Source: Norana najaformis
Taxonomy: Eukaryota > Annelida > Clitellata > Crassiclitellata > Hormogastridae
Assembly (NCBI GenBank): GCA_964023275.1
Contig: OZ029916.1
Location: forward strand, 25,930,953-25,994,952
Direction of reading: 5' to 3'
DNA length: 64,000 nucleotides
The stretch's first letter is position 1. The number at the start of each line of letters is the position of its first letter. The notes under the pieces are model-generated. The model searched no databases, had not been told where the DNA came from, and saw nothing but the letters and a program-made list of their open reading frames with translations. Positions 13,916 through 62,361 of the stretch are shown here, one piece after another. Both the position numbers and the translations under genes were made by a program.

Positions 13916-26632
<12,717 letters not shown>

Positions 26633-34525: not shown

Positions 34526-34929
34526 CTCTTCTCTTCTGTCCGTCCCTGTGCATGAGTATGCATAAGTGTTTTCTTTAAAACGTTTAACTGCGGTTATTAT
34601 GATGTTGAATCCAATTACCGTATTAACGACGTTGATACTAGAAAGCCACCTGTCAGTCAAACCCTAATACGCAATGATTACCTGCAAACAGTGCGAACGG
34701 TGCAAACAGTACAGTCGGCAGTAGAGCAACGAAGTGGCTGGCAAGTGCTTGTCGCAATCGGCCGACAGGCTCAAGAGTTCTCTGGAAGCCAGCGGAGCTA
34801 TTGGCCTTTGTCAGGTCTAGTCAGAAACACTGAAATCTGTTTTGCCTAAAGTATACCCAAATACACTTGAAGGCAGATGACTTGTAGGCGTAGACCCATA
34901 TCCTATCACGTATTGTAACGGAGTATTGT

Positions 34930-35440
34930 ACGCGTGCATGCATGTGTGTGTGTATGTATACATGTATGTATGTACGTATGTATGTATGTATGTGTGTATG
35001 TATGTATGTGTGTATTTATATATGTATGTATATATGTATGTGTGTATGTATGTATGTATGTGTGTAATGTGTGTATGTATGTATGTATGCATGTATGTGT
35101 ATGTATGTATGTGTGTAATGTACGTATGTATGTGTGTAATGTGTGTATGTATGAATGTATGCATGTATGTGTATGTATGTATGTATGTGTGTAATGTATG
35201 TATGTATGTATGTGTGTATGTGTATGTAATGTGTGTATGTATGTATGTGTGTAATGTATGTATGTATGTATGTGTGTATGTGTATGTAATGTGTGTATGT
35301 ATGTATGTATGCATGTATGTGTATGTATGTATGTATGTGTGTAATGTATGTATGTATGTATGTATGTATGTATGTGTGTAATGTGTGTATGCATGTAGGT
35401 ATGTATGTATGTATGTATGTGTCTAATGTGCGTACGTATG
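34930..35440. repeat. TATG tetranucleotide satellite
   Basis: About 500 bases of TGTATGTATG with regular GTGTAATG interruptions, suggesting higher-order units. Long frames on both strands (His/Thr/Tyr or Cys/Met/Val) are artefacts of the repeat. Confidence 0.95.
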
Positions 35441-35459
35441 TATGTTTGTGTTATGTGAT

Positions 35460-38085: not shown

Positions 38086-38442
38086 ATGAATACCGGAAGC
38101 CTTTTGGTAGCGTTGTCCGTTCTTTGCGTCTGCTTTGTTGTCCTTGCGGTTGGCGTAGAAGCAACAACTGCAGTGGAGTTCCAGTGGGTTGAAACTCCTA
38201 TACAGTATGTCTCCGAAGGACGACAGTTGACCGGACACGTCTTGGCCACCTATAACAACACATACCTTGTGACACAGTGCGCCAGACGATGTCTCACTTC
38301 GGCCAACTGCGCCTCGTACAATTTACTCCATGTTCTGAAGCGATGCGAGATCAACGGCGAGTCTCATCTCAGCTATCCGCAGGATCTCACGTTTTCTGAC
38401 GAGGCTCAGTATTATCTACGCGACGCCTATGCGGTCGACAAG
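38086..38442 (+). CDS. TSR/SRCR gene exon 1 (signal peptide, PAN/apple-like)
   Basis: MNTGSLLVALSVLCVCFVVL is a clear signal peptide. CARRCLTSANCASYNLL is the typical PAN spacing of a helix Cys pair and the next Cys. Donor AAG|GTAACT, phase 0. Confidence 0.9.
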
Positions 38443-41400
38443 GTAACTATCAGATAGTAAGTAAATAAGTAAGTAAATAAGTACTATTTATTAGCGCGAG
38501 ACAAACAAAACATATGAGGACAGACACGTGGAGTGGCTTTTTCACAGATGCAAAATCTTCTCAACCACTTAAAACCCAAGTTTATAAGCAAACATACACA
38601 TAGACAGATGGACAGACAGACGAGAAGGATGAATGAATCCACTGTTGAACGATTTCTAGTCCATTCAATTCGCATCGGGAACGTTCGTCAACCGCCAGCA
38701 TCGCTTCTTAATAGAATCGCCAACTTAACCTCATAACTGCAGCAGATGACGGAAGGTACAGTCATCACTCGCTCTGTGGTGTCATTTATTTCAGCTGGCT
38801 CTCGGTCCCTGCGCTGATCATCCATGTAGCAATGGAGGAACCTGCCTCACGTCAAGTCCCTCGAATGGGGTCCTCTCCTTCTACTGCTTCTGCGCCGACG
38901 GATGGACCGGAAGCACTTGCTCAGACAAAGGTATATCATCGATCCACCGATCCATCGATCCGTTCATCCGTTCATCCGTTCAGTCGTACAGTTTATTATA
39001 GGATATAAAATAGCGAACAAGTAACCTAACGAATGAATTAACCGACGAGCAGATGACCAAGCGAGCAAATGACCAAGCGAGCAAATGACCAAGCGAGCAA
39101 ATGACTAAGCGAGCAAATGGCCAAGCGAGCAACTTTCGCACACCCATTCGTTCATTCGTTCTTTCGTTCATCCATTTATCCATCCATCTACTCAACAACT
39201 TGATTTGTTTCTGAAGCGGACGTGATCGCTTGGTCAGACTGGAGCGGGTGGAGTGCGTGTTCTTCCAGTTGTGGAGATGGAGTTCAGATGCGGACGAGGA
39301 ACTGCGTTGATGTCAACACCGGAGCCAACAGATCGCCACAGTCATGTTATGGAAGGGACCAGGAAGAGCAGCACTGCCGACCTCAGGAGTGCCCATGTTA
39401 GTAGTATCGCCACCACTACCACTACCATCACCACCATCACCACCATCACCACCACCACCACTCCCTCATCACCACTGACAGACTCGCAGACAGAGAGGTA
39501 AGGTAAGGTCGTTGGTCGTTTATTAAACTCCTCTGCCAACGTTAGTCTTCAGATGTGTGGACCTGGGGCTGAAGAATATGTTAGACCTAATACAACAGCG
39601 GTAGTCTAACAACTAGACAACCATCACGGCTAAATAGCGAAAGTGCTGTCATTTTCACGATGCCCCCGGATTTACCCTCAGTCTATCTGTAGACACTCAA
39701 AACACACGCTAACAGACACGCACAGATAGAAAAAGACAAACGCAGATAGGCAGTCAGACAGAGAAAAAGACAGACAACATATATAAACATACATAGACAA
39801 CCACACACATACATACAGCCAGACACATGCAGCAGGGAGACAGACACACAGACAGACATACGCAGACATACACACAGATATATAGACACCAGAGGACTAG
39901 CTTTATATAGGATGACCCTCTGTCTTTTCCCGGGGCGCAGACTGGAGCCTTTGGAGCGATTGGAGCGCATGTCTGACAGCGACTGGCTGTGGACCTGGGA
40001 ATCAGCGCCGTGTGCGGACCTGTACAAACGGAGGAACAGCCGGAGTCGATCGCCTCTGCCTCGGGCCCGTCAACGAAACGAAGCCCTGCAAAGCCACCGC
40101 ATGCGACGGTAAGATCTACGGAAGCCCCGAAAGGACCGTCTATCTGGCGTTTGAGTTTTTCTCGTTACTCTTTAACGGCCACTATATGGACGCTATATGG
40201 TGACTCATGACGGCTTCTGAGTGCTACGACCAAATCCCAATGCCCACCACAGACCCTCCAGGGGAACTTAAAGTGTCAGGGGCCTAGGGCGAACTGACCT
40301 TATCTTTGAGTGATAGCCAAATATTTTTCTACTGGTCTCTCTTCAGTCCAGTCTATGCTATACATCATTCGTTTTACCACTACATCATTCACTAACCATT
40401 AGCTATTACCTTGAGATAAATCCAATGCTATAATTTCTAACGATCACAAGATATTTCTAATTGCAAACACCGGATATAAAAGCATAATTGTATGTTCCCG
40501 TGACTTCAACAGAAGAAAAAATCGCACAGTGTTACAGCTTTAGAATCATGAGTCGAACACGTTAATAATTCTATTCGTCTGCAAGTGAAGATTTTTATAG
40601 CGACATTTTAATTCATAAGCTTGTGTTGTTTCTGAGTCAGCGCCAGTTCGCCTTCAAGGAGGGTCGACCTACGGAGAAGGACGAATTGACGTCTACGATG
40701 ACGTCACTTTGACGTGGCTTTCGGTTTGCGCAGACGATGGCTGGACGAAACAGGATGCAGATGTCGTCTGCGCTCAACTAGGACTACGCTCAGGAGCCCA
40801 GCAGGGTCAGTCAGATTCCTTTCAGTATTTATTATTAATAGCATCATCATCAGCAGCAGCATCAGCATCAGCATCGTCGTCTTCATTATTATTTTTATAT
40901 TTAAGTCATAATCAATGAGATACCAGCAATTAAGGAATGGGTGCCAATCAGGAACCTCTTTCTATCATTCTTGGGATCGATGGTTTCTTTAATCTACTCA
41001 GTAGGGTGAAACGATCCAAGCAATTTAAAGCATAGATTTTGATTGATTTAGGAACAAATATGAAAACAAGAATTCTTCCACTTCAGGAGCAAATTTTCGT
41101 AGTAGAAAATCTAAATTATTGAGGCTCTTTAGCAAATGAGTGAATGATTTTAAAACAATCTTTAACAGTTTAAAATTTTGGTGTTTATTAAAAGCAGATC
41201 TAGACAGTTTTGAGAAAATTAATTCAACAACTTTACTAAAATTATTTGAATTTTTATTTGCAGTTCGAAGCAATCATTAATTAATGCCATGTGCCGTAGG
41301 TTAACAGCAATACAAAAGCCCTCAGTATCATATTGCATAATAAACGGTTTGCTGATGATGACACTATGCGTGACTGAACCAAAATTTGAAGAGTTGATTG

Positions 41401-43236
41401 TAAGTCTGTGGTTAAATAATCTCCGTTGGCGTCCAAGCCCCTGGTCTCCTCTGGAACCTGCGTTATATTCGTCGTTCCTTATTGTACACCACGAATAGTC
41501 AAAGCCATTGTTCTATTGCTTCGCCTTTCCCTTACCATGCTGCTTCTTTCGTTAGTCCCCTTCCTTCGTCTGATGATCATCACGGTTAGTGTAAGCTACA
41601 GCTGTACAATTATGTCTAACTTGCATCTGTTCAGTGGCCAAATATCCAATAAAAGATGGTGTCACAGCCGCTGAATTTGTCGTCATCGGGTTCTCGTGTA
41701 CCGGAAGTGAGAGCAGACTAGCCTCCTGCCCTCTGCAGACCTGGCATGGAACCAGCTGTCCTTCTAGACAATACGCAGGAGTCCAGTGCATAGGTGAAAG
41801 ATTCCTTACTATTTGCTGTTGGAATGTGGCCAGTAAATTCGAAGCATATTTGTCTGCCGATTAGGTTTTAATGAAGTTCGTATGTACAGTACATCATGTT
41901 CAGCGTACATATAAGTGTATGGATTTACAAAATTCTAGTTTTAAGAGACTTGTTTAACCCCTTGAATCGGTCTTTAGCAGCATACTAAATGTAACACAAC
42001 TGTTTAGACGGAGTTATGGCAAATAACAGAAGCGAAGTCTCTGAGGTCAAATAGATAATTCGACTAAAGCACAAACACGACCACTGCAATTCCAGCGCGG
42101 CGGGACACCTTATAAGGCTAAAACATAACACATGGACACCTAACTTTTAAGGCTACAACCAAGCAGAGAAATTTTGTTGGCATTATGCCACCAAATGTTG
42201 CTAAAAATGATAACATTACGAGTGTTGTTTACCTGTGAAAGTATTGCGCACGCCTCCGTATTAGTGTTTCGCACTGCCTTGTCTGCCTCTGAATCTTCTT
42301 GATTCGGAAACAAAGCGACCCAGTAGGCACACGAGCCTAAGGATTTAAAGCCCAGGTAAAAAGCCTGTCAATAAATTCCTTTTCTTCTTTTTGTTATTTA
42401 AGAAATGGAGAATTTATGATGTCGATTACGGTGTCATTATGCATCTGACTAGTAATCATCGGCATTTTTAAGAGGTTCAGGGCTGTCGGAGTGCAAAGTG
42501 CAATTATAACACTACAATTTTAATGCGTCTTTAACATCTTTATTGACCAGATATGTATAACATAACATAATATTTATTGCTCTTTTAATGATATTGCAGC
42601 AGCAATTAAAAGCTTACAGGAACAGTGGAATAGGAGCCAAGTTAAAAGCTACCAGCTCATATAATACTTGTCCCCTATCTGTAGTCAATAGTAACTGATT
42701 ACTTATGTTTCTTAAGTAACATGGCAATGATAATAATAAAATAATAAATTCTGTTAATGTATTATACTACATCACTTCACTTTGCATTACACAATCTATT
42801 GTGTTGATTCGGCTGTCTCAGTTGACGGTCGGTGGAGCTCTTGGAGTGAATGGAGCAGCTGTTCGGTCACGTGTGCATCTGGAATCAGCAAGAGAACCAG
42901 TCAGTGCAACTCACCTCCATCTCTCCGAGGTGGAAAGAACTGCGCGGGAAATGGAACTCAGTCACGGCCATGCACTCAGCCGCCTTGTCCAGGTAAGATC
43001 TCGCGTTATCCCACGCATAACACACTCAACTGCACATGTAACAACCCCTACCCCATTATATATAAAATACTGGACACAGGTAAGTCGTATAAACCTATAT
43101 CCATGCATGTTATATTGACCTACACAGTTTAGATATCATAAATGTACATCATTTATTATTATTTTTATCCCAGGTATATACGATCCCTCAGAATTAAAAA
43201 ATTATCCGGAGAATGAAAAATTACTATTACTGTTAC

Positions 43237-43309
<73 letters not shown>

Positions 43310-46300
43310 TTATTAATAAATAATCAATAATTATTTATTATTTATTTATGAATCTATAATATGAAACTTAGAACAGTATATGCCTTACTTGTAACATGAC
43401 AAAATGTATCTACCCAAATATGTTGTGATCTTCCGTGTAAATTTCGTGTAAATAAATTATTTATTAATTTATTAATAAATAATAAATAATATGATAAATA
43501 TAATAAAATAAATTATAAATTAATAATTGAAGCTAGACTTTTCCAATGCCTTCAACACGCTGCACAGGGGTTCGCTTCTTGAGGCAGTGGCCAGAGACAT
43601 TCCAGAGCTCTACCGGTTTGCTCATGCTGCCTATTCCAGCCGTCCATTGCTGCTGTACTGCTCCAAAACCATACGATCGGAGGAGGGGACCCAGCAAGGT
43701 GATCCTTTGGGCCCTCTAGAGTTCTGTCTCGCACTTCAACCGTTTCTGACAAAGTTGCAGTCCGGTCTCCGACTCGGATTTCTGGATGACCTTACGTTGG
43801 GTGGCAGCAAGGAGACAGTGGCAGCCGATGTCCGACTTATCGTACAAGAGTCCATGAACCTGGGACTGCTACTGAATCGCCACAAATGCGAGATTGCGTG
43901 CCAAGACATCCTGGCATTAGACGAGAACTCGGCTTTCCATGGGTTTAAGAAATGACATTGCTAGGCACGCCATTGATGCCAGACCCAGCGGTCGATAGGG
44001 CAATTGGAATGAAGTCGGAGGATCTTGAGACAGCCATTACAAAAATATCTCTGCTTCACGCGCACGACGCTCTGATTCTGCTGCGGAACAGCTTAAGTGT
44101 TCCAAAACTATCATACACCAGCCGTTTGTGCTGACTCCCCGAGCTTGGTTCGGTTCGACCACTTATTTTAAATGTGGACCTTGACGATGACCATTGGCTA
44201 CAGGCTTCATTGCCGGTGAGACATGGTGGCCTTGGAATTCGCAGTGCATCGACGCTGACACTATCCGCCTTCCTGGCTTCTGCTGCGGGCACTAGCGAAC
44301 TTCAGGTATGCATTTTACCACCAGGGATGGCTGAGATGCCATACGATCTCTCAATCTCAGCACTCACCGCACGGATGGACCTGACAGGTGCAGAGCCACC
44401 AACAGGAGCAGCATCACGCCGCAAAAAGGAGTGGGATACCCGTTGGATGAGCAAGACCTGGACGGGCCTGCTTGAGTCCCTCAGTGGTTCATGCGAACGC
44501 GCTCGCCTCCTAGCCTCATGAGCACCACATTCGCGCAATTGGCTGCTGGCTCCCTCTGTATCCGCTTTGGGACTGCGTCTTTCAGACGAGAAGGTACGGT
44601 TGGCTGTGGGGTGAGACTAGGCGCAACACTTTGCGAACCGCATTTATGCCATCACTGCAGGGGAAAAATCGACGCCAGTGGACTCCATGGCCTGGTTTGA
44701 AGAGGAGGAGGAGGCTAACAACAGCGGCAGAGTATGCTGAACGACGTCTTATGGAGAGCGCTGAGCAGAGCAAAAATCCCCGCGCAGAAAGAGCATCTGG
44801 GTCTCTCAATGGAAGACGGAACACCCGCGGACGGGGTGACGCTCATCCCTTGGTCGCGTGGTCGGTGCCTAGCATGGGATGTTTCAGTACCAGACACCTA
44901 TGCAACGTCTCATTTAGCCCACATATCGATCCCACCAGGTGAAGCCGCTGACAGCACAGCCTCGTTAAAAAGGATGAAGTACGTCACCACCACTCGCAGT
45001 CATACCTTTGTGGCGGTGGCCTTAGAGACCAGCGGTGCCTGGAGTAAGGAAGGTCTTGAATTCATCGCAGAATTGGGTAGCCGGATAATAATAATAATTA
45101 TTATTATTATTCATAGCCTGTGCATATAATGTGTGTATGTGTGCATGTGTGTATGGCATAAAATTGTTGATACTTGATGTATGTTTCTAGAATAACATAG
45201 TATGTGTGCTATTTGTTGCAATTATCATTATTATTATGATGATGATTGTTATTATTATTGTTGTTGTTTTATTATTATTTCTTTTTATCTTGAGGTAGGT
45301 ATGATCACTCAGAATTTTAAAAAAGTCCGGAAAAATGAAAACCATCTGGAACGGCTAGAAGGACCCGCTAGTCCAACGGTTATTATAATATTATTATTGT
45401 TATTACATCCAATGCTGCTGCTACTACGCTAAGGTACTTATGGTGCTACTACTACCTACTACTACCACTACTACCACTCCCACTACTACCACTCCCACTA
45501 CTACCACTCCCACTACTACTACGTGTGAACCGGTGAAACGTAGGCTCGGAAGATCACGACATATTTGGGTAGATACATTTTGTCATGTTACAAGTATGGC
45601 ATATACTGTTCTAAGTTTCATATTATTGGCAAATTTATGTAGCACTATGTTTACGCATCGTCAGGCGCGCTCTAGCTTGGCAAAGTCCTGTTGACAATCG
45701 CTCAACAAGCTCGGTAGGCTCTTAATATAAGTTCAGTGGCGGATCTAGGGGGCCACGCCACCCTGCTGAGTTTAAGGGAGGGGACATAGCCATTGGATGC
45801 CCGCATGGAGTCACCTTTACAGCCTACTCTTTGCTCTTTGCCCTTGCTTTCTGAACCCGAAGGGAGACATGCCAGCGATCTACTCTCTCTTTGGGTCCTT
45901 TGTAGACTATTGGTTTCCTACATAATAGCACAACAACATTCTCCGTGACATGTTTACATGGCGTGATTAGCAACGATATTAGTTGATAAGTAGGCCTAAC
46001 CGAAATTGGCGATGCCCTTCGCCTCCTCGCTCTGACCTTTGACCCAGTCGTAAGTCGGCTCGATTCCAGCATGGATATAATATTATGGTTCCAAGGGGCT
46101 GCTGCTCTGATCGGAGTATGCCTAGTCATGAACCACCCGATACCGATCAGAAACTTAATCGTTCTGTTTGTGACACGCTACACCACCAGACGATACCTGT
46201 GTCCAAGCGGCCGCATTTGACAACCGAAGACTTCAAACGAACTACCGACCATTCATTCATTCATTCATTAATTGACTTATTAATTAAACACACGACTCGG

Positions 46301-49300
46301 TTATTTACTAGTTAAACGACTGATTGATTCAGTAATCTGTTTCTGATTGGTTTTCTTTATTATTTTTAGCTGATTAATATAAAACTATTTTCATATTACG
46401 TTTAAGGAAAGAAAATGCATTTCAAGGTAAAATGCCTCATTGAAAAAACTTGTCAGTAAAAGAATTAGGCCTGTTTTAGGCCAATTCTAATAAATATTCA
46501 GATGACTATTTCCTGTTAGCGTGCTCAAAGGACTTTTAAATTGAATTTAAATTATTAGTTAAATAATAAAACTTAAAACTATTTATTTATGGACTGACTT
46601 ACGCCGCAACACGTGACCGGGAAGCTAATCAAAGAATTTATTTAGTAGGCCTTTCTCTGCAATGCAGCGTAACCTCACCCGAACAAGTCTTAGTTGAACA
46701 TCGAATGAACGAGAACACAGGGTTGATTAATCGACTGACCATTCGATCCGCCATTCAATCCGTCATCGACCAATCGATCGACCGATTGATCTTGCGATTG
46801 ATCGACAGCAAATACAACACGTGTCACCTGTGCAAGAGTCTAATTTGTCGCCCGTAGTTCAGATATTATGTGTCTGAGCTGCTGAACTTTGTTAACTCAA
46901 ACCGAAGCTGTGAACATCACTGATCTATGAATATCATTACTGCGTGATCATGCATGTTAAAATTGTCGCCTGAGAATACTGAAAGGTCTACTGGGTCATC
47001 GTAACCGATTAGGATTGAAGGCCTATTATTTTATAGGCCTTAAATCTTGATTCAAATTCGACCTTTAGCACGATTCTTTAACAGACCTTCAACCTTTATG
47101 TAATAAATACCTATAACAGGATTTTAGTAAACCTTAGATGCTTATAGACCTACGTCCAACTATTAGAGCCTGCCATAGCCAATCGGGGCATATTCGCATT
47201 TGGAAATTGGATGCAAGCTCTGCTTGGCCTCATTTTGCAGGTGTCAAACCCAAACCGTAACATGTTAGCCCCGTCTATCACACCAATAAGATGATGCATC
47301 ACAATCACGTATAGATTAAACGACGATTACATTATTGATTGAACTGCAGGTATGTAAGTATGTATGTATGTATTACTAAATTTGTAAAGCGACTCACGAA
47401 GGCTCTGCAGCACGGCTACCTAACGGTCTCTAAATAGGAACCTCTTGAGACGGGCAGAAAATGTTTCTTGAACTGTTGAACAGGTAAGATATCGGATGTC
47501 TGGTGGAAGAGTGTTCCAGAGAGACGGCCCCACAGTGGAGAAGGCGCGGTCTGCCCGAGCAGACGTACGAGAACGCGGTGCAGTGAGTTGACCATGTGTC
47601 GCCGATCATAGTCTCTGTCGACCAGGTTGATCAGCAACCGGCTTGATGAGCTCATTGATATAATCCGGCGCTGCGCCAATGATCGACGACCTGACTATGA
47701 GGAATATTTTGAACTGTGCCCTCTTCTCAACTGGAAGCCAATGTAAGGTGTCTCGCATGTAGGTAGAAATATGCGATAATCTAGAAGTACCAGCGACTAG
47801 CCGAGCAGCACAGCTGAGGACAGACTGGAGCTGACGGATGCGGAATTTAGGCAGGCCGACCAGAATGGAGTTGCAGTAGTCCAGACGCGTGATGATGAAG
47901 GAATGGACGAGCGTGACAGCCGCGCTATAGGACACATTTCGACGTATAGCCCTTATCTGACGCAGTTCATAGCAGCAGGTCCTGCAGATTGAATTAATAT
48001 GGCCCGCCATCGACAGCTCTTCGTCTAACAAAACACCCAGATCACAAACCATTAGCAGCGAGACCCAGTTTGAAGACCCTGCCAGAATTATATCTCGATC
48101 CGCTTCCCGAAGCTTGTGGCGAGAGGCGAACCAGATGAACTGTGTTTTCGCCGGGTTCAGCCGAAGCCGGTTTGAGGACATCCATTTCTGTATATTGGGT
48201 AACCACCGTCTGGACCCTCGAGATACAGGATGTGGTGTCAGATGGATGGCATGTCGCATATATCTGCACATCATCGACATATTGATGAACCAGTGCATCG
48301 AGAGCTTTGACGACCTGGGTCAGATCGGCAGTATATAGTATGTAGAGGAGTGGCCCGAGAACCGAACCCTTTGGCACACCACAAAGAGCCGGTATCCAGC
48401 TTGATGCATCCGTCCCGACCTCAACCCTCATAGTACTCCCGTCGAGGAAAGAGCGTATCAATTTTCGAGTATCCGTCACGCAAAACCATTCGAAGTTTCG
48501 AGACGAGTCAGAGGAATCTGATGATTCAGTGTCGAATGCTGCGCTTACATCAAGTAGAGCGAGCAGCTTGACCGTCCCTGCGTCGATTGCATCATGGATG
48601 TCAGAGACAAGTCGAAGGGCCATCGTCTCAGTCGAATGGCCCTTCCTAAAATCGGACTGACGCTTTGGTATGAGTTTACTTGAGTCGAGATAGAACACTG
48701 CCTGCTGTGCGACTATTTTCTCGATGATCTTTGAGAGAAATGAGAGATTGGAGACTGAGCGATAGCTATTGACATCTTCAGGATCCAACCCTAGCCTTTT
48801 AAGGTGTGGTTTGACTAAGAGGTAGATGACCCTCGGAAAGCGATGAATTACAGAGCCGGAGTTGGAATGGAAGGAGATCATCGACAAGCTCCTGAAGAAG
48901 AAAGGTTGGAATCGGGTCCAGAGAGCATGTCTTTGTTTGGGAGGACAAAAGGAGTTCAGGAGCGGTTACCATTCTAAAGCTATCGAATTGAAACTGAATC
49001 GTGGTGTACTCCGGAGGAGGGGAACACTCTGTTGCACGTCGAACATCAGTGACCTTATCAGCCAGATAGCGTGCGTAGCCCTCAGCAGTGAAAAGTGGGG
49101 TCATAGAGTCTCCACCACGACCAGGCATGCAAGAGAGGTCGTTCCAGAGTCGACGACTGTCCCCCGTATGCCAGGCAATTACAGCCCCTCAATAGCTCTG
49201 TTCTTTGCCTTTAAAAATGTGTTATTCCCGTAACTGTCTAATCCATTCAGAGCCTTCACTGGTCTGACCAGTCCGCCTGTAGAGTCGTTCAGCCCGCCTG

Positions 49301-52300: not shown

Positions 52301-55300
52301 CGTATACATCCATGGCACTCATAAAAGCAAGGACTGTTACTAGCAGGAAGAAGACTCGACTAATTACTGTCTGGCTGCAGACCTTTATTTCCGCAGACAA
52401 TAGTATCTACGACTGTTCTGAATACAGTTGTGTTTGTTATTTACAGATATTATTTTAAAGAATGCAAGCTTTCAGCCTTTCAGATAGTTTATCCGTAATC
52501 TAATTCTTATGGGTACAGAGTTGTCAATCAACTCTCTTGCACATGAAATATCGAAACAATTTTTCAAAAGTCAAGACATAATATAACAGGTGTGCAGTCG
52601 TTTTGCGACACTTTCCCACTTTTTCACTGGGCTTTCTCACAAATCCAATAAGCCGTAATCATGGAGAACATGAAATAAGCACCCTACCCTGCAGTCCTCC
52701 ATATTTGGAGTTAAAGCCTGGTGATGGGGTAGGCCATAATGCATAACGAGCTTTGTGGTTCTTGTAATGTAATGTAAGAGACCAGCTGGACTGCTGTTGA
52801 GCGTTAAATTAATCTCAGAACCAAGCCAAGAGCTAAGGCCTGCATCATTAATAGGTGCGTATAACAATGAATGAGTAGTTTATACCTGGTGGTGTGCGGT
52901 GATGTGGCCTATTCGGTCAGCGCATCATTATAAGGTTATAAGGCATTATTATAGGTCTATAATCGAAAGATTGCGGTTACGTGCCTGCTGAGTGGATTCC
53001 GTGTAACGACACAAGGCAAACGGCACGCTGTTTGCACGCATGTGCCTCTGTCACCATTGCAAGCAGCTAGAATTCCTACCGTCCAAAGTTGGGAAGTATA
53101 TGCTAAACGGCAAGTCTTGAGATGTACTGACTCATGGCCAGGACTTTAAGATTCGTCCATTTCCGGTTCAGTGGCCGAAGAGCGGAAAATGAGTGCCTCC
53201 CCTACTTTCCACTGGGGATAAAGAGCTTTACTTGCTAATATCCTGTGATATTACCTTAATTAACATCGTATGACAATACACAGCCGACTCCGATTCAAAG
53301 CGCGCGCCCATCTTGTGACTTGCAGTGGACTCCTACTGGGATAGCTGGCAAGAGTGGAACCGTTGTTCCAAGTCTTGTGGTAACGGAACGCAGAGTAGGA
53401 CACGCGATTGCATTCCTGGAAAGTATGGCGGAAGCAATTGTACAGGAAACAACCTGGAAACTCAGAAATGTAACACTCAGCCGTGTCCAGGTACAGTTTC
53501 TGTTGAATCTGTTCTAAGACCAAACAAAAGGCTTCTTGGCCTAGTTTTATTCTTCATAAAATGCTTACAACAACGATTACAAATTTCTGTTGCATTATTA
53601 AGTTTCGTACTACAGGTACGACATTTTCCGTCCTCTATGTATCAATAGGTCAGTTTCTGTATACCGTTCTTAATACGTCATTTCCTGTACGCTATTTATA
53701 GTATTACGTAATTTCTCTACGCTGTTTAGTATGTCATTTCCGGCATGGTGGTCTGATCGAGTCTGACTGCATTTCCGGTTTTATTTGTCGTCCGTTACCA
53801 ATTCCATAGCTACTGTAGAGTGAATTTCGTGATCCTTCTACCACGCAACGCCCCTTTATTGGCAGCACGATCTGCTTGAAACTGCCTTCCGCTTCAACCG
53901 CCCATTTTGATTTTCATTTATGCCACTCATATTCGTAGCTTGCAGGTATATGTTGTGAATGACCGCCATATAAATCATGTATTTCGTTGCTAATCTAATA
54001 ACTTACCTAGTTTTCCCTGCATCAGAAATCTTACTTTCAGCTTGAACATTGACTGGTCGTGTTCTATGTAGAGAAATAACTTCCCTTACTTTACTACACC
54101 TCAATACTCTTACTTTACCTTAAGCCTAAACATTGACTGGTCATGCTGTGTAGTGGACGGCGTATATAGCGATTGGCCGTCCTGGTCATCGTGTAGCGCC
54201 ACATGCGGCAGTGGGTTTCAGCACCGCAACCGGACATGTCAGCCGCCTCTGTTCGGGGGCAGGGACTGCGTCGGTGAGGCCAATCAAACCCAGCCCTGCT
54301 TTGACAGGAACTGTCCAGGTAAATCGGCAGTTCGACCTTCTAGTCCGGGCCACGTGGTCAGGCACTCTTCTTACGAAGCACGTCTGCTCAGTTTGACACG
54401 ACGTCTGGTGTTCGCCACACTCTTAACATTTATGTCTACAACAGGCAGACTCTATATAAGGCTTATAGACAGTCACAAACTGTCTGGTGTCAGACATATT
54501 TAAGGCCATCAGTGGCCAACCTCGTGAAGCAAATTTTCTTTTCCAGCGCCGTTCTATGTCTAGCAATACAGTGCTGTTGCAGTCAAAAGCACTTTCCCGG
54601 ATCCTGAAAACGATGCCTCATTGAATAGACATTTCCTTTTGTGGTTCGCGATAGTCTAGTGGTTACCGAAAGGTCGGGGTTTTAAATCCTCACCAGGGCA
54701 GCAATTTATTTCGAGATTTTAGCTCCAACTGCTTCCCTAACGAACTCAGCTATAATTAGTACACTGTCCGTAAGTGGGAAGATCAGGCGACAAGGGAGGG
54801 GACTGGCCAACCACCATCATGTGCCAAGAATAAGAAATATTAAGTCGCTAACACTTTATACCTATGGCTGCTTATCAACAAGCTTAAGGGAATGTTCTTC
54901 CTGTTCTTCTTTTCTTTCTTTTTCTTCCTCCTCTTCTTTATTTCTTTCTTCTCTTCTTCTATTCCTTCTACTTCTCCTCCTTGTCCTTCTCCTCCTCCTC
55001 CTTCTTCTTCTCCTTCTCCTCCTCTCCTTCTTCTTCGCATTTGCTCCTAGTTTAATTTCGCCAAATCCCAAGGGATCATTCGTACCTTGAATAGTAGACT
55101 ATTGATGATGATATTTCATGAGAAAATTTACTAGCACTGAACATTTGAATATTAGTCTACTGGTTAGCATACTTGACTGTCAGTCAAACTCCTCGCCAAG
55201 ACAGAAATTTATGTCGAGATTTCGGCTGCACTTGCGCCCCTAGCGAACTCAGCTATAATGCGTCGTACACTGACTGTACCATGACAGTGGGAAGATCAGA

Positions 55301-58300
55301 CGGCAAGGAAGAAGATGACCACCCGCCTTATATGCCAAAGCCAAGAACAATGAAGTCGATAACATTTTATTCCCATGACTGCCTCTCGGAGCTATCTTAA
55401 GATATTGCTCTTCTTACACTCTTTCTTGGTTCAGAATGACGGAAGAACGCCGTGCTGATCGAAACAATCTTTCAAAGCGTTATCCACATCTATCTCGCTT
55501 CTTTCTTCTCAAAGGAAATCACTTTAAAGAGAATCAGCCAAGTTAATTAATCTGAGAGTCTAAGAGTTCAGGCTCTTTTGTGTAAGCTGTACAAGAAAAA
55601 TAATTATGTAGGCCTACTTCATTACATAGGCTATGCACATATACGTACATATCTGTGATAAATATGGACGAACGAACGTACAGATAAGGGAAGACACATG
55701 CCAAACTTATTTTTTAAAAATCCACCTTTGTCAGACATTGTATTAAATTGAAAATTTATTACCAAACCATACAATCTGTAAGGAAATTCTGATCTGTTGG
55801 TCAAGGTCTGTTACGACAACAGACCTTGAACAACAACAACATACCTTGCCCACTTTTACCACACATTTTCTTATGTCATCTAACCTTACCTTATATAACA
55901 GTGTCTTAACATGACCGACTTAATCTGACCTGACCTAGTTTTTCTCTACCCCGTATCGAGTACGTCATATTGGATTGTTTTATTTGCTTGCTGTTAACTG
56001 CTTGCTGTTGTCCTAGACTCCTATTCATAATTTCACAATTCTTGAGATGCCGTCGTCTGTGTGTGTCAGTCTGTCTACAACTGTACGTCTGTCTAAATGT
56101 CTGTCTGTCTGTGCTTGCAGTGGATGGTTTCTGGGGCATCTGGTCCGAATGGAGCCAGTGTAATGCCAGCTGTGGAGGCGGAAGTTCCTCTCGTGCTCGC
56201 ACCTGCACTCCTCCACAGTATGGTGGCGCCACCTGCAACGGGTCCTCCACTGAGGTCCAGAGCTGCAACACAAAGTCATGTGCAGGTAAAGATCCCCTCA
56301 CATAGAGTTTAAAGGGCCTGAAATTGTCGATCTATTATTATGTAGGCCCCTATGTATGTATATGCTACTTATGTAGCTCATTCGTGAGGAGAATTAAAAG
56401 GCGCCACATAGATTGCCATATATCTATAATCTTTGTTCCTTTCTTTATATCCTACCTGAAGAAAGATTTCAACATATCCCACTGCATGTACGAGTACGAA
56501 CGGATCATTTTTAAAGGTGCCCCTAGTTGGATTGTTGCGGTCAAGTTTGCGCCTCAGTCGAAAGATTCTTCAACCCCGGGGCCACGTTTCTGAGGACTTC
56601 ACATGAATTGTGTAAGAACTTCACATGAATTGTGTAAATTAGCCTGCTACTTTTTGCCTTTTCACCTCTAATGCCTCAGTATGGATCAAAGATTTATATC
56701 TTTCCTTGATGTTGCTCCTACCCTGAAAACGGTCTGCCGGGAATTGGATGATCATTCGACTAAAGCACATACAACAACGATATTTCCATGTATTCCGTTT
56801 ACACTTCATTTCCATTTACAGTTAGTTTTCATTAGCACTTTAATTCCATTTACACTTTAGATCCATTTACACTTTATATCCAATCAGGCTTACACTTTCC
56901 ATCTGTAAGGATGATACGAAGATTTGAATCCAAGACGCAGTAGCGCTAGAGAAATGTTCAGATCTGTCTACGAACAACGTCTCATTTAAGAGGTATTAGT
57001 CGACGTGCGTTTCTTTCCATTTCCAGTGGATGGCGTATGGAGAGAGTGGGGATCGTGGAGCAGCTGCAACGCCACCTGTGGATCTGGAACAAAGATCCGT
57101 TTGCGTGATTGTTCTGGACCTTTCTACGGAGGCAAGCCCTGTCCGGGATCCTCGCAGGATCAAGATTTCTGCAACGACGACCCGTGTCCAGGTAACGAGC
57201 ACCTGCTGTCGGGTGGTGGTGGTTCAGTAGCTTCAGTGGCAATGGCTTCTTACAGCCATTGGTCCCAGACCGCCGTTAGTTGAGCTTCTTTTATCAGTTG
57301 CACCTTTCACGAAACTGAACTTAAATAGTTTAGTGCACCCAAATATTTTCACTTCTACGTCAAATGCAGGCATTAATGCGAAGGGACAAATGAAAACTCT
57401 AAAGAGACCAAAGTTCCCGCTTACAGAGACGCTTCATTTCTATATTCTGCATTTATTAATTTTACAGATGACGACATTATCAATGTATTTATGACTGTGC
57501 CGGGTGCCTTCAGCTTTAGCAGTTCGAACGCAACGAGTAGCACGATTAAAAATTTGCGAACTACATAGGCCTAAGCGATCCACTTGATTTATAATACGAG
57601 CGAAAGTCTTATTCTGGTTTAAAACTGTCGCAGCAGAGTGCATAACTTATTTAGATCAGTAGGTTAGGCGATTAAGCATCGTTTGTTTCTGCAATTTTAA
57701 TGGAGAAGTAGCAATAAAGAGTCAAACAACTTGTCTGCCCATAACACTAGCCTATCTCGCCTCATCTCACCTCACTCAGGTATTGGCAAAATCTTAGTGC
57801 GAGATGCTGTTTCTTTCTGCTTTCTCGGACAATTAATCAATTTTGGTCAGGATAAATTATTGCTGTTAGACGATGATTGTTTTCAACTTATCCCAGGAGG
57901 AGTCTCTTTAGATCTGTTCGATAGCCATGTTTCAGGGCCTTTGCGAGGTTTATTAAAAAGGCGCTATATGAATACCAAAATGTGTATACCTCACATCAGT
58001 TCGCATCACATCACGGTAGATCGCAGAACATCAGCCTACATGAAACTACATCGTATCGCATGGCATTATAATTGCACAGTTTGTATGCCTCACTATGTCG
58101 TGTATTGGGTCTGTGTTTAAGTGGATGGCGAGTGGAGTGCCTGGAGCAGATGGTCTTCCTGTTCCGTCTCGTGTTCCACGGGAAGCCAGACCAGCTACCG
58201 ACTCTGCAGCTCCGTCCAGAACGGGGGAAAGTTGTGTCCTGGGAACCCCAACCGAAACCAACCATGCGACGCCGGACCATGTCCAGGCAATGACTTCCTT

Positions 58301-58332
58301 CCAACTCCTCATCCATATGCAAATCATTCAAC

Positions 58333-58405
<73 letters not shown>

Positions 58406-61400
58406 ACAAAATAATAATAATAATAATAATAAGAAGAAGAAGAATAGTAATAATAAGGATAATCATGGTAATCATGATAATCATCCATCATCATAATGAC
58501 AATGACAACGAACGACAACGATGATGATTATGATGATGATGTGTTCAGTTGTCTTCATGTAGTTGACTGTGTCTGGATGGAATGGAGTGCCTGGTCATCT
58601 TGTAATGTGACTTGTGGTGGAGGCCTGAGCTGGCGCACTCGTTCATCCAATCCAGAGCTCTACGGAGGAAGTCCATGCAACGGATCCGCCGAAGACTCAG
58701 CCATCTGCAACACAAACCGATGCCCAAGTATGCAAATAATAACTCAAACCCAATCCCCTACTAAGCTAATGCCGTGTCTAACACGCAGTCACTCACTCAG
58801 CCCATCATGTTGCTAAGACCCAGTGCTCAGTAAGCTAACACCCCTTGGTTAAAAGTTTAAACATTCTTAAGTCAACTAAGACCTTATAGCTGGAACCGAT
58901 TGCTAAAGTAAACCAACGTTCGAGTAAATCAATGTCCAAGTTGTTCGATGCTGCAGTCGATGGCACTTCCAGCAAACAACCCACAAACAAAGAAAACCCA
59001 CAACTGCAATGAGCCACCATCTGAATAAAGTCACCCAATTAAGCGTAGTAAACAAATTCACAATAAGCTCTTAATATATTAAGCACTCAACATGTTGCCC
59101 AATTAATAATGTCGAAATAAGCAAACCCGCAAAGCATTCCAACGCACCTGTGAGGTGCATAGGTCTTAGGCCACATGCATGAGCTGATCCAGGATTTTAG
59201 CACGGAGGTGGCCACATGGCGAGCTCGGAAAGCTAAACTATACCGAAGTCTGGGGTTAATACCCCACTGGGGTCCAGAAGCTAAGCCCCCGGTGCGGATT
59301 AGAGGGGCGAAGTCCTCTGAAGCTGAGACTTTTTTACAAATTGCATCATTTTGGGCTATTTTCGTTGCATTATTTTTACGCATCTCTTTCAACTTGCCTA
59401 GCCACTGTAACCTGGCTTCTGGTTTCTCTGACCTATTGGAATTCGACCCGGCTTATCCAACAGATTATGATTTTGACTACGATTTTGACCATCGACTGAT
59501 GCCCTGGACATTATGATAAATGCGCTATACTCGATCGTTTCCAAAAATACCGGTATTCACAGTTTAACAACTGTGCAGTGATGTTACTGTTTAACGTTGC
59601 TGTGTCAAAACGAAGATGATTAGCATTGCCCTCCTCTTTCATCCAAGCTTGGGACTGGCACCACCAGAACACGGCAGTAGCGGAGTTTGTGCAGTGTTGT
59701 CAAATTCTGATAGTCTACTTATATACAGGGCCGCACACATCTGTGGACATCTGATATGTCTACGTGGAAGAAAACAGGCTAACTCGGGAGTCAATCATGA
59801 CTCATCACTCCAATTTAAGTAGTTACAGCCCATATGCATTTCCTCTCTTTCCAATCTACTGCGGCCTCTAAGGTTGAGGGTTCAGAGGTCAACGGAAATT
59901 AGCCTAATGATCTACTACAAAGATGGAAGTAAGAAAAGAATGTACATTAGAGTGTGTATATATATGGCAGGGCTTAATATTAGGAGAAATAGCGTAATCT
60001 TCACATACATAGGGGCCTACATGTCTGCACTAGGGAAAATATAATATTGAGACGGCGTCTAGGCGTCTACAACAGCACAACAATCATTTGTAAAAATGAA
60101 TAAAATCGCAATTTCGTCATTTGTGGTAATTTCTTTGCATTGTTTTAAGATTTTCGCTTTACACTCTAACCCCAGTTCCATCCCTACACTGCAGACGACG
60201 GGGCCATGGACCCACGTCCAGACCCGCTCTTAGCTATATAACAGTCTCCGACCATTCTAAGTTTGGGTTCTTCTTTTCTTAACAGTTCCTGGCGAATGGG
60301 TCACGTGGTCCGCATGGTCCAGCTGCAGTGTCACGTGTGGTCTAGGCGGACAGCGCATGCGCAATAGAACCTGCAACATGACGACCTATGGATCGCTAAC
60401 GCTGCCTTGTCTACCAGTGGGCGGAGAATACGAAGCAATAAGATGCCACGATTTCAGTTGCTTTCCAGTTGGTTAGTAGACCATATGGCCGCAATTTGAT
60501 TCAGGATAAACAAAGACGCTCTTCTAACCGTTATTTCGTCTCAATTTAACAGCTCTCTATTTCTGTTAACTTCTGCATGAATTTGTACTACAGATGATTT
60601 AAAGAATAGTATATACTGTACATTAACATAATAATATATGATCATTAATACAACAGGCACGTGTTTATCTGTTATTTTAATATTAATATCATTCTATTTA
60701 TATGCATATCATTAATATATTATTACTAATTACTAACTGTTATTAAACTTGTATAATGACATGATGACGACGACGAAGACGATGATGAAGATGAGGATTA
60801 CATTATAAGCGAATTGGTCGTTGTGTAGGAAAGAATTGTATGGAGTACTACGGCCGAGGCCTCGAGGACAATCTGACCTTCGTGTATATCGATCCGGATC
60901 AGGAAACAGGGATGAATGCTCCATTCCAAGTGCTCTGCCAACGGAATGACACAGGAGTCATCACTATGACCATCCGTAAGTGTGCAGATACGGGGTTACA
61001 TTACCATCTGCAGCACAGCAGCAATGCCAATGCATTGCGCATATAGCGTATCTACTAAACAGCTAGAGAAGAAAGGCCTTCCACGGCATTATTCTGCGAC
61101 ACCTAAGTAGGTCCGTTACATGTAGGCCTATGTATGTATGTACCCTATATATGTATGCATATGCAGCCTATGTATGCGTATATGTATGTATGTTTTAAGA
61201 CAATTAATATGGCGCCTCTCAAGTGCGCTGCTTCTGCCTGTAATTATTAGGCTTATAATTAATGTTCACAGCCTATAACTGAGTTGACACTGAATAACCC
61301 ATCTGATACTTACGACTAATATCTTTGTTTAACCACCAAGAATAGAAAAATGAACAAATTCTTAACATCTTTTATCTGTTCCATAAACATGTGTGCCAGT

Positions 61401-61581
61401 GTAACAATAATTTCATTTGGGGAGACAACAGGGACCAGGCACTCAGTTGGGGAGCATTGTCCCTCTGGCCTCTTTGTACAGCCCCCACTGATTACAAGTG
61501 TTATTGTCGCTTTCACTTGCTCATGCATTTGTGCAAGAGTATTAAGATACAAGCTCTACGTTGGTCGTCTACTACTACTAC

Positions 61582-61668
<87 letters not shown>

Positions 61669-62280
61669 TAGTAGTACTACTACTACTACTAATAATAATC
61701 ATCATCATCATAATCATAATATTAATAACACCACCACACAATACCAATAATACGGTAATACGGAGAGTGATGTTTAATTTTTTGTCGATGCTCTTCTTCC
61801 TCCTTCTTCTCTTTCCTGCCTCAGACAATCGTTTCGAGAACGGGACGACCGTTCAGGGCTCTTTGACGTCGAGTCTGCGAGAGTTCAAGGTCCAGTACAT
61901 CGATCGATCTGGAATGAATATCAGCGTCGACCAGCTGATCCCGATGGTCGACGGCGCTGCCTCTTGCCACCAGTACATCTCCTGGAGATGCTACACGGCT
62001 CCCATGAACTCCTATTCGTCCACGATGACCGTCCAGCGTCTCGTCTACTGGAAGAACCGCTACTACGAGGGCATGGGTTTCTGGGGCGACACGACGACCA
62101 CGGACTACGTCGTCAGGGCCAACAGCGGAATGACCTGTTCCTGCGGAGAGAAGAAGTCCTGTGGAAAGCCGGACCTCAAGTGCGCCTGCGACCTTAACAC
62201 TGCTACCTGGAGAAACGACAGCGGATACCTGACGCAGAAAATCCACCTGCCCGTCACAACCTACTGCGTCACTGATACAG
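38086..62280 (+). CDS. Secreted or surface multidomain protein: PAN, EGF, 10 TSP type-1 repeats, SRCR, CNTNAP-like fibrinogen module (3' incomplete)
   Basis: Sixteen exons give 1038 residues plus one base; the gene continues past the window. Domains: signal peptide (1-26, very hydrophobic), PAN/apple-like (about 30-119, Cys at CARRC, NC, RC), EGF (120-165), TSR1 and TSR2 (166-281), SRCR with six Cys in two exons, as in group A (282-389), TSR3 to TSR10 (390-838), then a fibrinogen-like module of the CNTNAP/neurexin IV type (839-1038: RNDTGVITMTIHN, ISWRCYTAP, YYEGMGFWGD, KCACDLNTATWRNDSGYLT, IHLPVTTY). The TSRs carry W-x-x-W and C-S-V-T-C-type sites for C-mannosylation and O-fucosylation. All introns after the first are phase 1, so modules can be gained or lost without breaking the frame. 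A likely role is adhesion, matrix or pattern recognition; I do not know a named orthologue. The C-terminus (membrane or secreted) is not visible. Confidence 0.9.
38795..38930 (+). CDS. TSR/SRCR gene exon 2 (EGF-like)
   Basis: ATTTATTTCAG acceptor. CADHPCSNGGTCL and FYCFCADGWTGSTC give six cysteines in EGF order. Donor AAAG|GTATAT, phase 1. Confidence 0.93.
39055..39140 (+). repeat. 16-bp tandem repeat
   Basis: GCGAGCAAATGACCAA repeats about five times in the intron between exons 2 and 3, next to GATCCGTTCATCC-type repeats. Confidence 0.85.
39217..39396 (+). CDS. TSR/SRCR gene exon 3 (TSR1)
   Basis: IAWSDWSGWSACSSSCGDGV with six cysteines, ending CRPQECP. Donor CCAT|GTTAGT, chosen for phase 1; a GT at 39401 would shift the frame. 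Confidence 0.9.
39941..40108 (+). CDS. TSR/SRCR gene exon 4 (TSR2)
   Basis: WSLWSDWSACLTATGCGPG has one extra residue between the first two cysteines compared with the other TSRs; it ends CKATACD. Acceptor CGGGGCGCAG, donor ACG|GTAAGA. Confidence 0.9.
40641..40805 (+). CDS. TSR/SRCR gene exon 5 (SRCR first half)
   Basis: VRLQGGSTYGEGRIDVYDD, SVCADDGW and VVCAQLGLRSGA are the SRCR signature. Donor CAG|G|GTCAGT, phase 1. Confidence 0.92.
41635..41793 (+). CDS. TSR/SRCR gene exon 6 (SRCR second half)
   Basis: FVVIGFSCTGSESRLASCPL, then GTSCPSRQYAGVQC completes the domain. Acceptor CTGTTCAG, donor TAG|GTGAAA. Confidence 0.92.
41794..42821 (+). other. Intron between the SRCR and TSR3 exons
   Basis: AT-rich, no further exon or named repeat recognised. 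Confidence 0.6.
42822..42992 (+). CDS. TSR/SRCR gene exon 7 (TSR3)
   Basis: GRWSSWSEWSSCSVTCASG, then QCNSPP and PCTQPPCP; 57 residues. Donor CAG|GTAAGA. Confidence 0.93.
43150..43220 (+). repeat. Direct repeat flanking a non-LTR element, left copy
   Basis: TTTTTATCCCAGGTATATAC, CTCAGAATT and ATCCGGAGAATGAAAA match 45271-45340 (GAGGTAGGTATGATCACTC, CAGAATTTT, GTCCGGAAAAATGAAAA) with changes. Confidence 0.65.
43218..43330. repeat. (AAT)n microsatellite
   Basis: About 30 AATAAT units, with AAATTTATTAATAAATAATC at the end. Confidence 0.95.
43356..43435 (+). repeat. 80-bp inverted repeat, left arm (right arm 45547-45626)
   Basis: ATAATATGAAACTTAGAACA through GTGATCTTCCG is the reverse complement of 45547-45626 with about two mismatches. 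Confidence 0.9.
43527..45108 (+). mobile_element. Degenerate non-LTR retrotransposon, RT and C-terminal part
   Basis: Frames at 43527-43955, 43952-44134, 44174-44521 and 44734-45088 carry LDFSNAFNTLHR (catalytic Asp), EGTQQGDPLGPLEFC and LGFLDDLTLGG (catalytic Asp pair), then DHWLQASLPVRHGGLGIRSA and LIPWSRGRCLAWDVSV. The G-T-Q-Q-G-D-P-L-G-P form differs from the G-V-P-Q-G-S-V-L-G-P of the CR1 pieces, so it is another clade. It ends in an ATA/ATT tail and is broken by frame shifts. Confidence 0.88.
45271..45340 (+). repeat. Direct repeat flanking a non-LTR element, right copy
   Basis: Partner of 43150-43220, followed by a TATTATAATATTATTATTG tract and a CTACTACCACTCC repeat (45445-45525). 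Confidence 0.6.
45547..45626 (-). repeat. 80-bp inverted repeat, right arm
   Basis: See the left arm at 43356-43435. Confidence 0.9.
47350..49500 (-). mobile_element. CR1-like LINE, degenerate
   Basis: Minus-strand pieces in order are ATECSPPPEY and SLDPIPTFLLQELVDDLLP, DVNSYRSVSNLSFLSKIIEK, FRKGHSTETMALRL, LALLDVSAAFDT (first catalytic Asp), ALCGVPKGSVLGPLLYI, HQYVDDVQIY (catalytic Asp pair), RLDYCNSILVGLP, LHWLPVEKRAQFKI and the C-terminal SLWNTLPP-type block. At least three frame shifts. The 3' end is GCGACTTTA-like with an ATACATAC tail near 47350-47370. Confidence 0.92.
49830..50130 (+). repeat. CR1-like LINE 3' end
   Basis: Plus-strand LLWNSLPSSIGSVNSMML then LKTHLFDLL, followed by a tail with TCCAATGGATTATGATT and CATCGACTGATGCCTTGGGC. 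It is the same family as 7600-7735 and 62362-63960, in the other orientation. Confidence 0.8.
51150..51300. repeat. CCCCTG / CCCTCT tandem repeat
   Basis: CCCCTG hexamers, about 14 in a row, grade into CCCTCTCC. Pro/Ala- and Arg/Gly-rich frames here are artefacts. Confidence 0.9.
52880..53180 (+). repeat. Possible tRNA-derived SINE
   Basis: GTGGCCTATTCGGTCAGCGC resembles an A-box region and GAAAGATTGCGGTTACGTGC a B-box region. It is degenerate, so this is tentative. Confidence 0.35.
53326..53490 (+). CDS. TSR/SRCR gene exon 8 (TSR4)
   Basis: SYWDSWQEWNRCSKSCGNGT, RTRDC and CNTQPCP; 165 nt. Donor CAG|GTACAG. Confidence 0.93.
54154..54318 (+). CDS. TSR/SRCR gene exon 9 (TSR5)
   Basis: VYSDWPSWSSCSATCGSGF, then GGRDCVGEANQTQPCFDRNC; 165 nt. 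Donor CAG|GTAAAT. The first Trp of the W-x-x-W pair is Tyr here. Confidence 0.93.
54640..54880 (+). repeat. tRNA-derived SINE, copy 1
   Basis: ATAGTCTAGTGGTTACCG is A-box-like and GGGTTTTAAATCCTC B-box-like. The body has CCTAACGAACTCAGCTATAA, GTGGGAAGATCAGGCG and TATACCTATGGCTGC. The order is repeated at 55155-55395. Confidence 0.7.
54895..55040. repeat. Polypyrimidine tract (CTT/CTC)
   Basis: TTCTTCCTCC-type run between the two SINE copies; frames across it are artefacts. Confidence 0.9.
55155..55395 (+). repeat. tRNA-derived SINE, copy 2
   Basis: TTAGTCTACTGGTTAGCATA, CAAACTCCTCG, CCTAGCGAACTCAGCTATAA, GTGGGAAGATCAGACGGC and TATTCCCATGACTGCC follow the same order as copy 1. Confidence 0.7.
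56121..56285 (+). CDS. TSR/SRCR gene exon 10 (TSR6)
   Basis: GFWGIWSEWSQCNASCGGGS, then YGGATCNGS and CNTKSCA; 165 nt. Donor CAG|GTAAAG. Confidence 0.93.
57027..57191 (+). CDS. TSR/SRCR gene exon 11 (TSR7)
   Basis: VWREWGSWSSCNATCGSGT, RLRDC, GGKPCPG and DDPCP; 165 nt. Donor CAG|GTAACG. Confidence 0.93.
57192..58121 (+). other. Intron between TSR7 and TSR8
   Basis: The only feature is a LINE 3'-end-like stretch near 57885-57985 (TTTAGATCTGTTCGATAGCC, then AAAAAGGCGCTATATGAATA). Confidence 0.5.
58122..58286 (+). CDS. TSR/SRCR gene exon 12 (TSR8), GC donor
   Basis: EWSAWSRWSSCSVSCSTGS, RLCSSVQNGGKLCPG and DAGPCP; 165 nt. At the point where the sister exons have CAG|GT this one has CAG|GCAATG. 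Confidence 0.9.
58334..58406. repeat. (GAT)n microsatellite
   Basis: About 24 GAT units starting 48 bases past the GC donor, then AATAAT and AAGAAG runs. Confidence 0.95.
58563..58727 (+). CDS. TSR/SRCR gene exon 13 (TSR9, altered cysteine pattern)
   Basis: VDCVWMEWSAWSSCNVTCGG then RTRSSNPELYGGSPCNG and CNTNRCP; 165 nt. The usual third Cys is Ser and there is a new Cys before the Trp ladder. Acceptor CTTCATGTAG, donor CCAA|GTATGC. Confidence 0.92.
58728..60285 (+). other. Intron between TSR9 and TSR10
   Basis: It contains a LINE 3' end on the plus strand (about 59385-59530: GACCTATTGGAATTCGACCC, then ATCGACTGATGCCCTGGACA). The rest, including a GC-richer patch near 59160-59320, is not recognised. 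Confidence 0.6.
60286..60471 (+). CDS. TSR/SRCR gene exon 14 (TSR10)
   Basis: GEWVTWSAWSSCSVTCGLGG, RNRTCNMTTYG and CHDFSCFPV; 186 nt, longer than its sisters. Donor GTTG|GTTAGT in phase 1. Confidence 0.88.
60829..60975 (+). CDS. TSR/SRCR gene exon 15 (fibrinogen-like module, first part)
   Basis: GKNCMEYYGRGLEDNLTFVY, IDPDQETGMNAPFQVLC and TGVITMTI. A C-x-E-Y start, I-D-P-D and P-F-x-V-x-C are the marks of this module. Acceptor CGTTGTGTAG, donor ATCC|GTAAGT. Confidence 0.88.
61568..61700. repeat. Self-complementary ACT/AGT/ACT microsatellite
   Basis: Four ACT units, then about 34 AGT units with one GTGGTAG break, then five ACT units, then AAT. The ends can pair with the middle. Confidence 0.93.
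61825..62280 (+). CDS. TSR/SRCR gene exon 16 (fibrinogen-like module, CNTNAP type)
   Basis: NRFENGTTVQGS, DGAASCHQYISWRCY, VYWKNRYYEGMGFWGD, GMTCSCGEKKSC, KCACDLNTATWRNDSG and KIHLPVTTYCVTDTG follow the CNTNAP/neurexin IV pattern (C-x-C-G, C-x-C-D, W-x-x-D-x-G, L-P-V-T). Acceptor CCTGCCTCAG, donor ACAG|GTGCGA, phase 1, so a further exon lies downstream. Confidence 0.92.
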
Positions 62281-62361
62281 GTGCGACGACTGTGCGGTCA
62301 CGCTTCGGTTGTTTTACAGGGATCATTTTGCGATTTGGTCACGGTGTTCTGATTCATTGGA

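Follow-up and report, generated by a model that had tools for sequence, protein, structure and literature searches.

A 64,000-nucleotide stretch of the genome of the annelid Norana najaformis (contig OZ029916.1, positions 25,930,953 to 25,994,952; hereafter, the window) raises a question of protein architecture: do the extracellular modules encoded on its plus strand between positions 38086 and 62280 belong to one protein, and would that protein be a receptor or a secreted component of the matrix? Our analysis of the locus reveals a well-supported set of exons, whose modules follow an uncommon order and which most likely belong to one gene. We consider it fairly probable that the product is one secreted protein with the order PAN, EGF, two thrombospondin type 1 repeats (TSRs), SRCR, eight TSRs, and a C-terminal module. 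The best overall explanation, to which we assign a probability of about 0.5, is a single 17-exon gene encoding a secreted, multivalent matrix or adhesion glycoprotein of approximately 1067 residues.

The gene model, built from the sequence, comprises 16 exons within the window, which when joined yield 1049 codons with no stop. Intron 1 is in phase 0, and the other 14 inter-exon introns and the exon 16 donor are in phase 1. The acceptors are AG in all 15 inter-exon introns, and the donors are GT in 14 of the 15. The sole non-GT donor of the model is a GC at 58286/58287, behind the TSR 8 exon (exon 12). Position 62280, which the original prediction gave as the end of the locus, is the exon 16 donor.

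Each module occupies its own exon or exons, all on the plus strand. In particular, exon 1 (38086–38442) contains the start codon, a signal peptide, and a PAN/Apple domain (PAN_1), and ends in a phase-0 donor, while exon 2 (38795–38930), which is phase 0 in and phase 1 out, contains an EGF-like domain (PF00008). Exons 3 (39217–39396) and 4 (39941–40108) contain TSR 1 and TSR 2; exons 5 (40641–40805) and 6 (41635–41793) contain the first and second halves of an SRCR domain (PF00530); and exon 7 (42822–42992) contains TSR 3. Following intron 7 (42993–53325), exons 8 (53326–53490), 9 (54154–54318), 10 (56121–56285), 11 (57027–57191), 12 (58122–58286), 13 (58563–58727), and 14 (60286–60471) contain TSRs 4 to 10, respectively, and exons 15 (60796–60975) and 16 (61825–62280) contain the first part and the main part of the C-terminal module. 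The TSR exons were assigned with Pfam and a genome-wide TSP_1 search, in which the matches listed (best 150 of 234 candidates) include ten TSRs at the locus, every one of them in the model.

A Pfam search of the joined protein, which matched 8 families in 1049 residues, returned PAN_1, EGF, two TSP_1, SRCR, and eight TSP_1 in that order along the chain, confirming the order given in the original prediction. PAN_1 matches with E 8.3e-6 in the whole protein and 7.6e-7 alone (26.0 and 29.3 bits, versus a curated cut-off of 21.4), EGF with E 2.1e-6 and 3e-9 (28.3 and 37.4 bits, versus a curated cut-off of 21.5), TSP_1 over ten stretches with E 2.9e-105 in the whole protein, and SRCR with E 1.5e-18 in the whole protein and 9.4e-21 alone. 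The ten predicted TSR stretches and the predicted SRCR domain are not chance matches, because the E-values for TSP_1 and SRCR in the whole protein are 2.9e-105 and 1.5e-18.

The SRCR domain sits between TSR 2 and TSR 3. Group-A SRCR domains have six cysteines and are coded by two exons. The domain at this locus, spread over exons 5 and 6 and containing six cysteines as counted from the letters, appears to fit that rule, and the earlier claim of a group-A SRCR domain amid ten TSRs is thereby borne out. The SRCR domain matches chains of CD163, CD5L, and LOXL2, and TSRs 3 to 6 match chains of properdin and thrombospondin-1 best.

The TSRs carry the signatures of their family. Specifically, six cysteines and a WxxW motif are present in all ten, and the O-fucose consensus C-x-x-S/T-C-x-x-G is present in nine, with TSR 2 as the exception in the motif scan. 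The modeled protein contains 21 N-glycosylation sequons and 90 cysteines. TSR 9 (58563–58727) has "RTRSSN" versus "RLRDCS" in TSR 7, corresponding to loss of the third cysteine, and has "VDCVW" near its start, corresponding to gain of a cysteine, such that the total is still six. We take this layout to be a switch from group 1 to group 2 TSR within one array.

Two joints of the model determine whether it describes one secreted protein: intron 7, at which the gene could be divided, and the 3′ end, which lies outside the window. At 10,333 bases, intron 7 is by far the longest intron of the model. Its length is partly explained because it contains reverse-transcriptase fragments on both strands, with RVT_1 matches at 48042–48965 on the minus strand (E 5.6e-19) and at 43527–43952 on the plus strand (E 2.6e-10). 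Exon 7, on the near side of the intron, and exons 8 to 13, on the far side, have equal phase and the same "VD" start, and TSR 3 is 40–51% identical to TSRs 4 to 9 and 35%, 30%, and 38% identical to TSRs 1, 2, and 10, respectively.

At the 3′ end, we analyzed 80 kb of sequence from window position 62001 onward, together with 20 kb upstream of the window. In human CNTNAP2, the fibrinogen-like segment precedes a VGPLxC stretch, from which a search motif was drawn. Approximately 2.0 kb past exon 16, beyond the in-window part of intron 16 (62281–64000), a phase-1 acceptor is followed by a reading G-NSTYKGSFEVGPLLCYN, a stop codon (L009:2305–2360, lying 304 to 360 bases beyond the window, plus strand), and an AATAAA signal 178 bases after the stop (L009:2538–2543, plus strand). 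Exon 17 thus probably closes the frame just outside the window, consistent with the claim of the original prediction that the C-terminus is missing from it. The six most hydrophobic 19-residue windows of the protein begin at residues 3 to 8, in exon 1, as in a signal-peptide-like start, and beyond residue 40 the mean hydropathy of every 19-residue window stays at or below 1.0, indicating no membrane span past the signal peptide. The product of approximately 1067 residues is most likely secreted, because the signal peptide is its last hydrophobic stretch. The earlier suggestion that it might be a receptor finds no support.

Several points weigh against one secreted product, beginning with the GC donor of exon 12. 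Across intron 7, TSR 3 is 51% identical to a repeat from a different gene (L001) and hence no closer to TSRs 4 to 9 than to that repeat, which weakens any argument based on similarity among TSRs; other TSR clusters, too, often have "VDG" starts; and a scan of the intron revealed two signal-peptide-like first-exon candidates with a phase-1 donor. Together with the length of the intron, these observations are points in favor of two genes, divided within intron 7, one encoding PAN, EGF, two TSRs, SRCR, and one TSR and the other encoding seven TSRs and the C-terminal module. However, both candidate starts fall within the range of the control (30 length-scaled pieces; mean 0.65, maximum 3.1) in a scan that demands a phase-1 donor, so that the gene's own exon 1 is not flagged, and the shared exon phase and the reverse-transcriptase fragments also argue against division. 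Joining across intron 7 is probable, and a split is unlikely.

At the 3′ end, exon 17 was located without transcripts, through the motif taken from human CNTNAP2. A first, looser form of the motif matches at seven places across the 80 kb, and three of these fall no more than 2.1 kb beyond exon 16; of the seven, the exon 17 candidate alone shows the complete VGPLxC form followed by a stop. A tighter version, of VGPLxC type and preceded by a phase-1 acceptor, has five occurrences in 470,548 strand-bases of the sequence analyzed, the candidate included, corresponding to approximately 0.02 expected per 2 kb, a figure that is no clean probability, since this version was devised with the match already known. 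If the exon 17 reading arose by chance, later exons could add a transmembrane segment, and the product would be a membrane-anchored receptor. The source of the last exon in a motif search and the other looser matches nearby speak for this, while the coincidence of motif, phase, stop, and AATAAA within 2.3 kb past exon 16 speaks against it, as does a search for laminin-G on contig 4, the contig on which the window lies, between 23.91 and 27.30 Mb (reaching about 1.3 Mb downstream), which found none among the best 150 of 217 candidates. The laminin-G result also weighs against a CNTNAP-like continuation of the gene. We consider an anchored receptor quite improbable and retain the secreted protein as the preferred reading.

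The least secure element of the finding is the identity of the C-terminal module. The original prediction labeled exons 15 and 16 a CNTNAP-like fibrinogen module, and no profile confirms this: exons 15–16 or 15–17 have no usable match in Pfam (best, Ornatin, E 2.7); the module has no usable match in NCBIfam (one match of 12 bits, versus a cut-off of 146); and of the searches against the PDB, two were empty and another returned only antibody chains, with E 0.22. An AlphaFold2 prediction of exon 16 alone has a mean pLDDT (predicted local distance difference test) of 33.4, too low to use. The cysteine spacing and the last motif of the module appear to resemble those of the CNTNAP fibrinogen-like segment. 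The label rests on such motifs, because there is no usable match in the three databases, and we keep it as a lead. A narrow search of the genome for copies of the module, with two and one candidates scored, found only the locus itself, and two C-terminal motifs, scanned in two other TSR clusters, are present only at the locus.

The wider genome provides a context in which a role in recognition has to be weighed. Across 608 Mb in 17 contigs, there are at least 131 TSP_1 matches (E 0.001), at least 146 PAN_1 matches (E 1), and at least 153 SRCR matches (E 0.001). The listed SRCR matches are mostly in two stretches of contig 2, 36.35–36.80 Mb and 37.81–39.01 Mb, where they are dense and several are regularly spaced by approximately 1.38 kb and approximately 1.59 kb, a pattern typical of tandem duplicates; some of the matches cross in-frame stops, as expected where they run into introns. 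The PAN domain of the locus is the only one of the PAN_1 matches listed that lies within 50 kb of a listed TSR; among the matches listed, two more lie within 100 kb (contig 1) and several within 150 kb (contigs 1 and 12). Among the matches listed, no SRCR match lies within 100 kb of a TSR, and three lie within 150 kb, on contig 3. Alignments to the 36 kb of the other two TSR clusters (L024–L027, on contigs 8 and 12) consist of TSR matches; one of these extends past its TSR to residue 930 at 26% identity. The two remaining points on the unfavorable side concern these comparisons: the SRCR matches listed omit the SRCR halves of the gene itself, and the copy searches either were narrow (one to two candidates) or were made among the matches listed. 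The expanded repertoire suggested in the original prediction holds for the SRCR and PAN families of the genome; the gene itself has no close copy in the narrow searches or among the matches listed.

These data bear on a rival in which the protein is a soluble, opsonin-like recognition protein: microbial glycans or polyanions would be the ligands of the SRCR domain and C-terminal module, with phagocytes or complement recruited by the TSR rod, in functional parallel to properdin. The best matches of TSRs 3 to 6 to properdin and thrombospondin-1 chains, the matches of the SRCR domain to CD163 and CD5L chains, and the abundance of SRCR and PAN matches in the genome are in line with such a function. 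The likeness to properdin, however, reflects the TSR fold as a whole, the matrix enzyme LOXL2 is also among the SRCR matches, and the gene lacks a close copy as far as the searches reach. We regard recognition as the main alternative, though a rather unlikely one. The evidence leans toward matrix or adhesion over recognition because there are no close copies as far as tested, and we propose a matrix or adhesion role tentatively, at slightly less than even odds.

For the secreted matrix or adhesion protein, a mechanism can be outlined from what is known of the modules. Arrays of TSRs have an extended shape and, in many cases, affinity for glycosaminoglycans, and WxxW and C-x-x-S/T-C-x-x-G are motifs at which TSRs are modified; the ligands of group-A SRCR domains include polyanions, lipoproteins, and microbes, and other such domains are components of matrix enzymes; and PAN and EGF domains make protein contacts. 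The ten TSRs would form an extended rod, modified at the WxxW and C-x-x-S/T-C-x-x-G motifs, that could bind glycosaminoglycans and cell-surface partners. The PAN, EGF, and SRCR domains, close to one terminus, and the C-terminal module, at the opposite terminus, would bind different ligands, and the protein would bridge cells, matrix, or particles; a bridging role is proposed because the secreted rod would carry different heads at its ends. We infer modification, ligand binding, and bridging from the family properties of the modules. A more specific version, which we consider rather unlikely, is an undescribed secreted bridging protein in which a properdin-like TSR rod carries a PAN/EGF/SRCR head and a free-standing CNTNAP-type fibrinogen-like head and joins microbe or polyanion binding to cell or complement binding, in a genome where SRCR and PAN are greatly expanded and the protein itself has no close copies.

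Other features of the window and genome lie apart from the protein. At 1235–3461 on the plus strand, a GYF-domain exon (E 2.5e-16) follows an open frame with no Pfam match, an arrangement that we take to be CD2BP2-like. A G-patch exon (E 1.7e-8) is present at 5793–6050 on the minus strand. At 14499–15095 and 20484–20795, also on the minus strand, a POLO_box match (E 2.3e-4) and the terminal part of a kinase domain (E 1e-5), both below the curated cut-off, are probably pieces of a polo-like kinase. A Tc1/mariner-type transposase (HTH_Tnp_Tc3_2, DDE_3) occupies 31018–32093 on the plus strand in two overlapping frames and is apparently broken, and a tract several hundred bases long at about 34850–35450 reads, from its translations, as a short-unit repeat. 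Runs of GAT and GTA triplets are present at 58335–58404 and 61578–61663. Outside the window, contig 15 contains COX1 pseudogene fragments (412069–412726 and 570464–571281), in which one AAA stands at what we take to be the Asn of a TDRN motif, a single-codon hint of the echinoderm/flatworm mitochondrial code.

If transcripts confirm the model, the locus would provide a clean case of exon shuffling, with all modules after EGF on exons bounded by phase-1 introns and with an SRCR domain embedded among TSRs. The animal matrisome would gain an architecture, and there would be a testable candidate in which scavenger-type binding is coupled to a TSR rod. The finding alone does not change a field.

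The original prediction could name no described protein with this order, and none was found in the literature text on TSR/SRCR architectures that was searched (figures, supplements, and annotated animal proteomes lay outside that search), a result that falls short of proving the order novel. In the parts of the surveys consulted, cnidarians and sea slugs have many TSR and SRCR proteins in new combinations, none of them of the given order (PMC5446238, PMC5119243, PMC7663992), and in amphioxus, SRCR is reported to pair with a wider range of partners than elsewhere among animals (PMC2575513). For the ctenophore Mnemiopsis, an SRCR-protein figure has TSP1 in its legend (PMC11797021), and for the sponge Halichondria, a receptor figure has TSP in its legend (PMC8242945). 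Going by these legends, the mixing of TSR and SRCR by itself is not new. The ctenophore and sponge proteins have TSP1 and TSP, respectively, as a point in common with the locus protein; the text gives neither their order nor their full composition.

Among the closest known systems are secreted proteins consisting of TSRs only, properdin and the TSR-rich proteins of cnidarians (PMC5446238), with which the locus protein shares a long TSR array, WxxW and O-fucose motifs, and the lack of a membrane span. Unlike properdin-like proteins, it adds PAN, EGF, and SRCR domains and a C-terminal module. The Rhamnospondin of Hydractinia, for which we know of no PAN, EGF, or SRCR domain, has a C-terminal lectin domain of another kind than the module of the locus protein. 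It has eight TSRs and, according to a mention in one survey, is a proposed microbe binder (PMC5446238). CNTNAP and neurexin IV differ from the locus protein, in which no F5/8 or laminin-G domain matches in Pfam and the model has no transmembrane segment. The type-3 repeats and C-terminal domain of thrombospondins proper are not among the eight Pfam families matched, nor are the metalloprotease and spacer of ADAMTS and ADAMTS-like proteins, of which only the TSP1_ADAMTS repeat model matches. The locus protein belongs to the TSR superfamily as an array protein and contains SRCR group A, PAN/Apple, and EGF-like modules; overall, it looks like a new mosaic of known modules, rather than a new kind of system.

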